Origin: [Zimmermannella] alba NBRC 15616
GTDB taxonomy: Bacteria; Actinomycetota; Actinomycetes; Actinomycetales; Microbacteriaceae
Length of the DNA stretch: 64,000 nucleotides
NCBI RefSeq assembly: GCF_001570905.1
Contig: NZ_BCSO01000001.1
Span: 496,001 to 560,000 of the forward strand
Direction: 5' to 3'
Positions 11,163 through 13,182 of this stretch are shown here, piece after piece. The notes beneath the pieces are model-generated. The model saw nothing but the letters and a program-made list of their open reading frames with translations. It was not told the origin of the DNA and did not search any database. The translations under genes and the position numbers were made by a program. The first letter of the stretch is position 1. Each line of letters begins with the position of its first letter.

Positions 11163-11992
11163 TTTCGATCGAGTCCGTCGCGAAGCGCTACGGCGAGCAA
11201 CTCATCATCGACGACGTGAATCTCACGATCCCGCGCGGGGGAGTGACCGCCGTGATCGGCCCGAACGGCGCAGGCAAATCGACGCTACTCAAGGTGATGA
11301 GCCGGTTGGAGCCGCTCTCGGCAGGTGTGGTCACGGTGGATGGCCTGGATGTGTCGACAACGAAGTCTTCGGTGCTGGCAACACGTCTTGCGGTGCTCCG
11401 TCAGGAGAATCACGTGACGATGCGCCTGACGGTGCGTGACTTGGTGGCTTTTGGTCGCTTCCCACATTCGAACGGGAAGCTCTCGCCGCGCGATGGGCAG
11501 CACATTGATGAAGCCCTCGCCTTTCTTGGCCTGACGGAGCTCGCGGATCGAAGTCTCGATGAACTCTCCGGCGGTCAGCGTCAGCGCGCCTTTGTGGCGA
11601 TGGTGATCTGTCAGGACACGGACTACGTGTTGTTGGATGAGCCGCTCAACAATCTCGATATGCGGCATTCGGTCATGATGATGCAGCACTTGCGGCGTAT
11701 CGCACTCGAGCTCGGCAAGACGGTCGTCATTGTGCTGCACGACATCAATTTCGCGAGCGTGTATGCGGATCGGATCATCGCAATGCGTGATGGTCGCGTG
11801 CTCCATGAGGGGCCAACGAATGAGATCATGACGAGTGAGCGGCTCGCGGAGCTCTACGACCTCTTCATCCCAATTCATGAGGTAGAGGGCCGCCGGATCG
11901 GCGTGTATTACTGGTCGCCGCAGTTGCCGACGCGTTCTGGTTCGCGTGGTGAACCGCGGGATGATGCGGAGCGCTCAGCCGATTCCGTCTAG
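11159..11992 (+). CDS. Iron-siderophore ABC transporter ATPase
   Basis: The 277-residue nucleotide-binding subunit that drives the importer. Walker A is GPNGAGKST (34-42), the signature is LSGGQRQR (from 136), Walker B is YVLLDEP (156-162), and the switch histidine is in IVLHDIN. This is the FepC/YclP class. The tail of about 25 residues after YYWSPQ is polar and probably disordered. It is the last gene of the operon; tRNA-Leu begins 18 nt after its stop. Confidence 0.93.
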   Translation: MISIESVAKRYGEQLIIDDVNLTIPRGGVTAVIGPNGAGKSTLLKVMSRLEPLSAGVVTVDGLDVSTTKSSVLATRLAVLRQENHVTMRLTVRDLVAFGRFPHSNGKLSPRDGQHIDEALAFLGLTELADRSLDELSGGQRQRAFVAMVICQDTDYVLLDEPLNNLDMRHSVMMMQHLRRIALELGKTVVIVLHDINFASVYADRIIAMRDGRVLHEGPTNEIMTSERLAELYDLFIPIHEVEGRRIGVYYWSPQLPTRSGSRGEPRDDAERSADSV

Positions 11993-12010
11993 AGTGTTGC
12001 TGTCACCCCA

Positions 12011-12092
12011 GCCGGCTTGGCGGAATTGGCAGACGCGGCGCACTCAAACTGCGCTATCGAAAGGTGTGCGGGTTCGAGTCCCGCAGCCGGCA
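12011..12092 (+). tRNA. tRNA-Leu (anticodon CAA)
   Basis: An 82-nt class II tRNA. The acceptor stem GCCGGCT pairs with AGCCGGC, with discriminator A at 12092. The anticodon stem GCGCA/TGCGC holds the loop CTCAAAC, giving anticodon CAA for UUG. A variable arm longer than that of class I tRNAs follows, and the T arm is GCGGG-TTCGAGT-CCCGC. CCA is not encoded; CAAAA follows. Confidence 0.95.
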
Positions 12093-12180
12093 CAAAACCC
12101 CGCGATCCACCCTTGTGGTGGTCGCGGGGTTTTTCGTCGGTGGCGGGCGAGGACTCTGCACGGGGGTCCCCATCGCCGGT
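12068..12180 (+). repeat. Direct repeat copy 1: tRNA-Leu 3' part plus terminator
   Basis: This stretch covers the T arm and 3' acceptor strand of tRNA-Leu, its terminator and about 45 nt more. It recurs almost exactly 183 nt downstream (12251-12361). Confidence 0.9.
12094..12135 (+). terminator. Terminator after tRNA-Leu
   Basis: AAAACCCCGCGA pairs with TCGCGGGGTTTT around an inner CCAC/GTGG stem and is followed by a T run. It is symmetrical and could act on both strands. Confidence 0.85.
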
Positions 12181-12250
12181 ACGAGACAGCGCCCAACACG
12201 CAAACGCACCCTGCGCACCCGCCGTGGCGCTGTCGAGCCGTGTCGATGGG

Positions 12251-12361
12251 GCGGGTTCGAGTCCCGCAGCCGGCACAAAACCCCGTGATCCACCCTTGTG
12301 GTGGTCGCGGGGTTTTTCGTCGGTGGCGGGCGAGGACTCTGCACGGGGTCCCCTTCGCCGG
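12251..12361 (+). repeat. Direct repeat copy 2: truncated tRNA-Leu remnant plus terminator
   Basis: The T arm and the 3' acceptor strand of tRNA-Leu are repeated with the terminator and flank, differing by a few bases (CCCCGTGA for CCCCGCGA, one G fewer). No D arm, anticodon arm or 5' acceptor strand precedes it, so it cannot be a functional tRNA. The 70-nt spacer holds a 9-bp inverted repeat (GACAGCGCC 12185-12193, GGCGCTGTC 12226-12234). Confidence 0.9.
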
Positions 12362-12467
12362 TGATCTCGATACACGGCCTGCGGCCGCACTCGGTCACCT
12401 CAGCCGTGCGCGCTCGATCACCTCGCACTGAGCTGGTCGAGTAGGGCGCAGCCCGTATCGAGACCAC
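12361..12467. repeat. Interspersed palindromic repeat, two inverted copies
   Basis: An inverted copy (12361-12400) and a direct copy (12429-12467) of the element with core TCGAGT, GC-rich hairpin, GTATCGAGA. The same element occurs near 55.5, 58.9 and 63.4 kb. Between this and 12566 I see nothing else of note. Confidence 0.8.
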
Positions 12468-12566
12468 GCAGCGAAATGCTCAGCCACATCACATCGGGTG
12501 CGTGCTTCTCGCAAGAGCACTCCACGACATCCACATCTCGTCCACGCGCCGCCGCGTGTCGGGGCT

Positions 12567-12572
12567 TAGACT
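12567..12572 (+). promoter_or_regulatory. -10 element for a leaderless pdtaR transcript
   Basis: TAGACT ends 7 nt before the GTG at 12580 and no ribosome-binding site is present, so transcription would begin at or next to the start codon. Confidence 0.5.
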
Positions 12573-12579
12573 CGCATGC

Positions 12580-13182
12580 GTGACTGACCACGAAGCATCG
12601 CAGACTGCACGGAGAGTCGTCGTCGCTGAAGACGAATCGCTCATCCGCCTGGACATCGTTGAGATTCTCCGCGACAACGGTTTTGACGTTGTCGGTGAGG
12701 CTGGCGACGGCGAGACCGCTGTCGCGCTCGCCAAGGAGCTTCGCCCCGACCTCGTCGTCATGGACGTCAAGATGCCGCAGCTTGACGGCATCTCGGCTGC
12801 AGAGCAGCTGTCGAAGGATTCCATCGCTCCGGTCGTGCTCCTCACCGCCTTCAGCCAGAAGGAACTCGTCGAGCGTGCCACCGAAGCTGGCGCCCTGGCG
12901 TACGTCGTGAAGCCGTTCACGCAGAATGACCTCCTTCCGGCGATCGAGATTGCCCTTGCCCGTCACGCGCAGCTCGTCGCCCTCGAAGCCGAGGTTGCTG
13001 ACCTCACCGAGCGTTTCGAGACGCGCAAGCTCGTCGACCGTGCGAAGGGCCTGCTCACGCAAAAGATGGGCCTTTCGGAGCCTGAAGCATTCCGTTGGAT
13101 TCAGAAGGCGTCGATGGACCGTCGCCTCACCATGCACGAGGTTGCCGAGGCTGTCGTGAAGCAGCTGTCGGCGAAGAAGTAG
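12580..13182 (+). CDS. pdtaR: Response regulator with ANTAR RNA-binding output (PdtaR type)
   Basis: A 200-residue two-domain regulator like mycobacterial Rv1626/PdtaR. The receiver domain (about 11-130) has acidic residues in VVAEDES, the phosphoacceptor D62 in VVMDVKMP and K111 in VVKPF. The C-terminal part (about 139-197) is an ANTAR domain (RAKGLLTQKMGLSEPEAFRW), which binds paired hairpins in RNA to stop premature termination. GTG 12580 was chosen because it gives the family length and sits 7 nt after a -10 hexamer; the longer upstream frame is not conserved in character. No partner kinase is nearby. Confidence 0.9.
   Translation: MTDHEASQTARRVVVAEDESLIRLDIVEILRDNGFDVVGEAGDGETAVALAKELRPDLVVMDVKMPQLDGISAAEQLSKDSIAPVVLLTAFSQKELVERATEAGALAYVVKPFTQNDLLPAIEIALARHAQLVALEAEVADLTERFETRKLVDRAKGLLTQKMGLSEPEAFRWIQKASMDRRLTMHEVAEAVVKQLSAKK

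Follow-up and report, generated by a model that had tools for sequence, protein, structure and literature searches.

The 3′ end of an intact tRNA-Leu(CAA) gene is present a second time downstream of that gene. Far from being an isolated scar, this arrangement represents a single unit within a recurrent class of tRNA 3′-end repeats. In this class, an intact tRNA gene is followed by its own 3′ end again, mostly from the T stem to or past the end of the tRNA, behind a short filler devoid of genes. Such units are found singly or as tandem arrays, with periods mostly of 55-183 nt, and both their presence and their copy number vary among related species. In other Microbacteriaceae, the tRNAs bearing them are those for Ala, Arg, Gly, Leu, Ser, Thr, and Val.

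The Repeated 3′ End of tRNA-Leu(CAA)

For the window, i.e., the whole 64-kb stretch of DNA analysed, the initial annotation had described a duplication of the tRNA-Leu(CAA) 3′ end together with its terminator, 183 nt apart, as well as a 70-nt spacer holding a 9-bp inverted repeat, and both descriptions are confirmed (Table 1). The two copies, 113 and 112 nt long respectively and offset by 183 nt, are identical apart from two substitutions and a single 1-nt gap. The repeat opens with 26 nt of the tRNA gene, namely T arm, 3′ acceptor strand and the two bases that close the gene, and each copy goes on past the terminator into about 45 nt of flank. Two terminator-like sites are observed at the locus against 0.2 in shuffles, no tRNA is called by ARAGORN in the second copy, and the 64-kb window holds no other exact repeat of at least 24 nt within 1 kb. 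In spite of its inverted repeat, the spacer confers no unusual fold, positions 12138-12290 not surpassing shuffles in stability (z -0.47), and the strongest short hairpin close to the T arm of this unit does not stand out either (p=0.77).

TABLE 1. Features of the tRNA-Leu(CAA) locus and its immediate neighbours (positions in the window).
Feature	Position	Strand	Basis
tRNA-Leu(CAA), intact	12011..12093	+	ARAGORN; RF00005 55.1 bits
Repeat copy 1: T arm, 3′ acceptor strand, terminator, flank	12068..12180	+	sequence comparison
Terminator 1	12094..12134	+	terminator-like site; limits read from sequence
70-nt filler separating the copies	12181..12250	+	sequence
9-bp inverted repeat within filler (12185-12193 / 12226-12234)	12185..12234	+	
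Repeat copy 2: T arm, 3′ acceptor strand, terminator, flank; 5′ part of tRNA absent	12251..12362	+	
Terminator 2	12277..12317	+	terminator-like site; limits read from sequence
REP-like repeat of this genome, starting 2 nt past copy 2; neighbour, outside the unit	12364..12470	.	
Response regulator with ANTAR domain, conserved neighbour	12589..13182	+	PF00072, PF03861; start codon assumed

The block of identity begins inside the tRNA gene and spans its 3′ end, as in an att duplication, and the tRNA 3′ end recurs downstream in direct orientation, as in repeats of the rtT type. In a plain tandem duplication, on the other hand, the copies would adjoin with nothing new between them, and here the filler intervenes. 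The remaining units of the class have fillers as well, although in uniform arrays the point at which the repeated part stops is difficult to fix. Plain slippage, also envisaged in the initial annotation, fails to explain this filler or the similar fillers found behind different tRNAs. A decayed full second tRNA was considered as the source of the filler and rejected, its alignment to the tRNA body not being significant (local p 0.28 and 0.077; anchored p=0.15). Of note, the REP-like repeat next to the unit, of about 107 nt, belongs to a dispersed set: the query gave 36 matches in this genome, and most of the matches listed, on many contigs, fall on this part.

Homologous tRNA-Leu(CAA) Loci

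The locus is preceded by genes for a pyruvate kinase and a FecCD-type ABC transporter and followed by those for the ANTAR response regulator and DNA polymerase I. With the response regulator as anchor, the best 80 of 560 response-regulator loci, all from other species, served as homologous loci. A tRNA-Leu(CAA) gene lies near the response regulator gene at all 80 of them, on the opposite strand at 60 and on the same strand at 20, and since the relative strand differs, the orientation of this tRNA gene has, judging from this comparison, changed in the course of family evolution. The sequence compared beyond the tRNA end reached at least 7 kb in 73/80 loci and at least 1500 nt in 77/80, and stayed below 1 kb in 3/80; as these stretches are finite, a larger island may escape notice.

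With a loose scan, the 3′ end of tRNA-Leu(CAA) was seen to recur downstream at nine of the 80 loci, namely (i) that of Zimmermannella faecalis, with the copy 181 nt away, and (ii) eight others, seven of them named Curtobacterium, with copies 40-56 nt away and, at two loci, two extra copies. Following a strict rule (20 nt, at most two mismatches, 15-400 nt downstream), the number comes to 4/80, and the final 22 nt of the tRNA recur anywhere in the compared stretch at 1/80, again 181 nt away. The comparison of relatives proposed in the initial annotation thus yielded one of the two signs sought, i.e., single-copy loci (71/80 in the loose scan), while an island between the copies was seen at none of the 80 loci within the stretches compared. 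In Curtobacterium, locus L134 is filled (unit present) and locus L144 is empty; by eye, the sequence of L134 beyond the second copy resembles that of L144 beyond the tRNA, apart from differences close to the junction. Behind the tRNA-Leu(CAA) of genome G342, there are three further T-arm copies with a period of 80, the last one imperfect. In G009, a genome of the same genus in which the order of the genes is unchanged, tRNA-Leu(CAA) is followed by 3.7 kb with YjbR-like and decarboxylase genes, in which no second tRNA end was found. These YjbR-like and Orn/Lys/Arg decarboxylase genes (L152, 9946-13628) separate tRNA-Leu(CAA) from the response regulator, and the window lacks them at this place.

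Units at Other tRNAs and in Other Genomes

In the genome of the window itself (assembly of 2.14 Mb in 29 contigs), tRNA-Ser(GGA) carries the same kind of unit with a period of 105 nt. As contig C10 stops inside this array and contig C22 opens with a similar unit, a longer tRNA-Ser(GGA) array across C10 and C22 is likely on an inferred order of the two contigs. When all tRNA genes of four genomes were scanned, without counting true neighbouring tRNA genes as copies, 7/184 had a unit, i.e., 2/45 in this genome, 1/47 in Curtobacterium (G398), 3/46 in Z. faecalis (G399) and 1/46 in G009; three of these four genomes were chosen for their Leu repeat, and excluding the three Leu genes leaves 4/181. 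By way of control, among 20000 random 20-mers drawn from the 80 homologous loci, 36 reappear at a distance of 15-400 nt downstream when up to two mismatches are allowed, and the same scan applied to E. coli tyrT-tyrV finds three extra copies at 178-nt steps. Weaker repeats were excluded from the counts, namely those of Leu(TAG) and Met(CAT) in G398, of Lys in Z. faecalis and of Ser(CGA) in Z. faecalis (16 nt at 908 nt), as well as locus L109, judged by eye. Downstream of the tRNA-Lys of Z. faecalis (L256), a degenerate tRNA end and a Leu-related filler were observed, forming by eye a long imperfect palindrome.

At Ser(GGA), units are present at 2/29 loci; the 29 were those matching a flanked query best and are thus a non-random subset of the 379 matching genomes. 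A four-copy array is carried by G361, which has a unit at a tRNA-Ser, and further units were found at Thr (G162 and G111), Gly (two loci in G108) and Arg (G165 and G115); some of the tandem arrays consist of identical units. A pattern composed of GCGATGC, a gap and a T arm matched in 56/396 genomes, against one match in each of three genomes for the backwards control. Since this pattern also matches coding-like sequence and true tRNA genes, loci were inspected, of which 7/43, in six genomes, held tRNA-end units.

T-Stem Boundary, Hairpins, and Fillers

Counted from the annotated tRNA end, the copy starts at -23 to -27, i.e., at the T stem, in 14/17 actinobacterial units and further in for the other three. 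Many units of the class have a perfect hairpin beside the T-arm copy, often of the form ACGC-N3/4-GCGT, the window unit having none. Within the final 45 nt of the filler, a perfect stem exceeding shuffles at p<0.05 is present in 9/18 units, E. coli included, and in 6/11 actinobacterial units free of motif-search selection, the Leu unit of the window not being among them. Directly upstream of the copy, ACGC-N3/4-GCGT occurs in 4/11 units free of motif-search selection (0.08 in shuffles, 0.04 in the background), a count that is not a clean test because the motif was defined after viewing those units; the units first found via the GCGATGC pattern are preselected for a hairpin with a GAT loop and were therefore excluded from it. 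In eight hairpins picked for showing such a stem, five of which came from the GCGATGC search, pairing is kept at 72/72 cells and changes on both sides occur at three of six stem pairs.

Regarding the fillers, 14 of 171 pairs exceed all 300 shuffles, which were run for the 17 pairs scoring at least 26. Nine pairs, picked after looking, were further set against 242 real tRNA-downstream segments without repeats, using two scorings. Four of them stand above all 242 segments under both scorings, namely Leu and Lys of Z. faecalis, the two Gly of G108, Gly of G108 with Arg of G165, and Ala of G009 with Ser of G361. The pair formed by Thr of G162 and Gly of G108 lies above all 242 under one scoring and is reached by seven under the other, while the score of the Ser filler from the window genome with either Ala of G009 or Ser of Z. 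faecalis is reached by 1-2/242. As for the Leu filler of the window, its score with the Lys filler of Z. faecalis is reached by 0/242 or 3/242 depending on the scoring, and that with the Leu filler of the same species by 23/242 or 39/242. Because these pair scores are weak and a profile built from the two Z. faecalis fillers (Leu and Lys) misses it, the window filler would at best be a distant member of the filler family. Over the loci searched, profiles A, B, and C matched their source units and arrays thereof and nothing else. With leave-out profiles, the one from G009 and G361 did not find the Ser filler of the window genome, and the one from the G108 pair found G165 and G162 with E values of only 1.4-2.4. 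In four Curtobacterium loci, the filler contains a remnant of the variable arm of the tRNA (p 0.015-0.045); such a remnant is possible in the Leu filler of Z. faecalis (p=0.03), the corresponding value for the window filler being p=0.15.

Recombinases, Phages, and Plasmids

No integrase appears among the identified genes neighbouring the locus. Tyrosine recombinases (PF00589) gave three matches in the window genome, one of them in a 145-aa frame, and two in G361, which score best with XerC- and XerD-type models though below the XerC and XerD equivalog cut-offs. The match in the 145-aa frame (G000:C7:102582-102917) is located near tRNA-His and tRNA-Arg and is possibly the remnant of an element. 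A search of plasmids for a matching attP gave no match, the phage search gave one, of 30 nt with a Burkholderia phage (E=7e-3), and a hairpin-plus-T-arm pattern gave one match in viral contigs, inside an ORF of 586 aa, neither of these two matches being a convincing attP. At a different tRNA, two tRNA-Thr(TGT) 3′ ends with long flanks stand 9.9 kb apart in genome G171 (L232, contig C3), perhaps an ordinary island, and islands at tRNA ends may therefore occur in the family. An origin in REP sequences mobilised by RAYT was rejected, the Y1 transposase (Y1_Tnp) being absent from all eight genomes searched, this one included.

Origin of the Repeats

The explanation favoured here, with chances put at about even, is that of short gene-less inserts whose arrival leaves the tRNA end duplicated and which subsequently vary through recombination. 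A short, often palindromic piece of DNA would enter at the boundary of the T arm, and its entry would duplicate the 3′ end of the tRNA, in the window with terminator and flank, so that the tRNA would be restored; the direct repeats would later expand, shrink or vanish via recombination or slippage. The first step could be driven either by a recombinase acting in trans or by a replicative strand switch at the palindromic T arm. This explanation is based on the common T-stem boundary, the shared hairpin and the related fillers, and the filled and empty forms in Curtobacterium (L134 and L144) speak for it. Against it, the window unit lacks a significant hairpin, its filler is weakly related to the others and no enzyme was found, neither a Y1 transposase in eight genomes nor an integrase among the identified neighbours; moreover, the variable-arm remnants (Curtobacterium, perhaps Leu of Z. 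faecalis) fit local duplication followed by decay, with no insert. A wider proposal, to be taken as tentative, is that families of gene-less palindromic elements of about 20-160 nt insert specifically at tRNA T arms in Microbacteriaceae, duplicating the 3′ end with survival of the tRNA, and spread from one tRNA to another within a genome.

Those remnants, along with inverted tRNA pieces in some units, point to replication strand switching combined with tandem duplication, which is possible if on the doubtful side: the palindromic T arm would stall or mislead the polymerase, a piece of the opposite strand would be copied and, upon return, the tRNA 3′ end copied again, hairpins and inverted tRNA pieces being by-products. 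An inverted copy of the local tRNA is found in the filler of the tRNA-Val of Z. faecalis (11 nt exact, p=0.002, or 0.020 with the other scoring), in that of E. coli tyrT, where it is a T-arm piece (p=0.002), and more weakly in that of the tRNA-Leu of Z. faecalis (p=0.018 and 0.030), and no resident enzyme would be necessary. In four of the seven fillers tested, i.e., Leu and Ser of the window genome, Ser of G361 and Lys of Z. faecalis, the inverted piece is however not significant, and strand switching does not predict the same ACGC..GCGT stem, or related fillers, behind different tRNAs. The balance leans towards the short insert, though the two are not separable on this evidence. Less probable than either at this locus, and improbable in its own right, is the scar of a phage, ICE or island integrated at the T arm by a tyrosine integrase, with nearly all DNA between attL and attR since lost. 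The T arm is a usual sublocation of integration, and the position of the repeat within the tRNA would agree with such a scar, as would the two distant tRNA-Thr(TGT) copies of G171. Integration is, moreover, described in a passage of PMC9897764 as a common source of partial tRNA genes. The footprint of integration and excision at an attachment site proposed in the initial annotation is partly supported, with the start at the T arm, the loci with a single copy and the Curtobacterium pair in its favour. What an att duplication would further show, i.e., an integrase or island DNA between the repeats, is missing, with 70 nt between the copies here and no island at the 80 homologous loci within the stretches compared. 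The plasmid search gave no match and the phage search just the 30-nt one, G361, despite its four copies, has only the XerC- and XerD-like recombinases, tandem arrays of identical units exist, and in several pairs the fillers are related where random scars would be expected.

Selection on a putative functional transcript, in which hairpin, tRNA 3′ end and terminator would act as an RNA decoy or small RNA by analogy with RttR, annotated as a small RNA in E. coli, appears very improbable. The copies of the tRNA end are near-perfect where the fillers are divergent, the hairpin changes are compensatory and the units are oriented along tRNA transcription, all of which such a role would account for; yet the distribution is patchy, covering only the 9/80 (loose) or 4/80 (strict) tRNA-Leu(CAA) loci, the tRNAs bearing units are partly different across the four scanned genomes, and the identity of the copies is equally explicable by youth or recombination.

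Comparison with Known Systems

Integrative elements targeting tRNA genes, with the att duplication of their tyrosine integrases, resemble the present units in that a 3′ tRNA fragment is repeated and an intact tRNA kept, but differ from them by the gene space between copies, by an integrase nearby and by the lack of tandem arrays of short units. With the REP elements of RAYT (Y1) transposases, the units share the nature of short palindromic intergenic sequences; unlike REP elements, they occur in genomes without Y1_Tnp, and the hairpins of the class stand before T-arm copies. A search of the literature returned no paper on such repeats outside enterobacteria, which is weak evidence of absence since most subscription journals lay outside the search.

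The closest case known to the authors is E. coli tyrT/rttR. In the rtT/RttR repeats of tyrT-tyrV, direct repeats likewise follow a tRNA gene, each closing with the 3′ end of that tRNA, and the period of 178 nt compares with 183 nt in the window. The differences lie in the number of extra copies (three versus one), in the tRNA, phylum and filler, and, by eye, in the T loop, which is split in the E. coli tyrT repeats and whole in the window; an Rfam scan of positions 11900-12600 to E=5 gave no rtT match. In enterobacteria, a 175-bp VNTR in the rtT RNA is tabulated among Salmonella differences in a table of PMC2658671, and rttR is marked as REP-bearing in one table row of PMC12306157. The tyrT repeats of E. 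coli have counted as an oddity since the 1970s. With a class of this build recurring across numerous tRNAs in a single bacterial family, and frequently accompanied by a similar hairpin, their origin becomes testable by comparing close strains, and short tRNA-end repeats need not be island scars.
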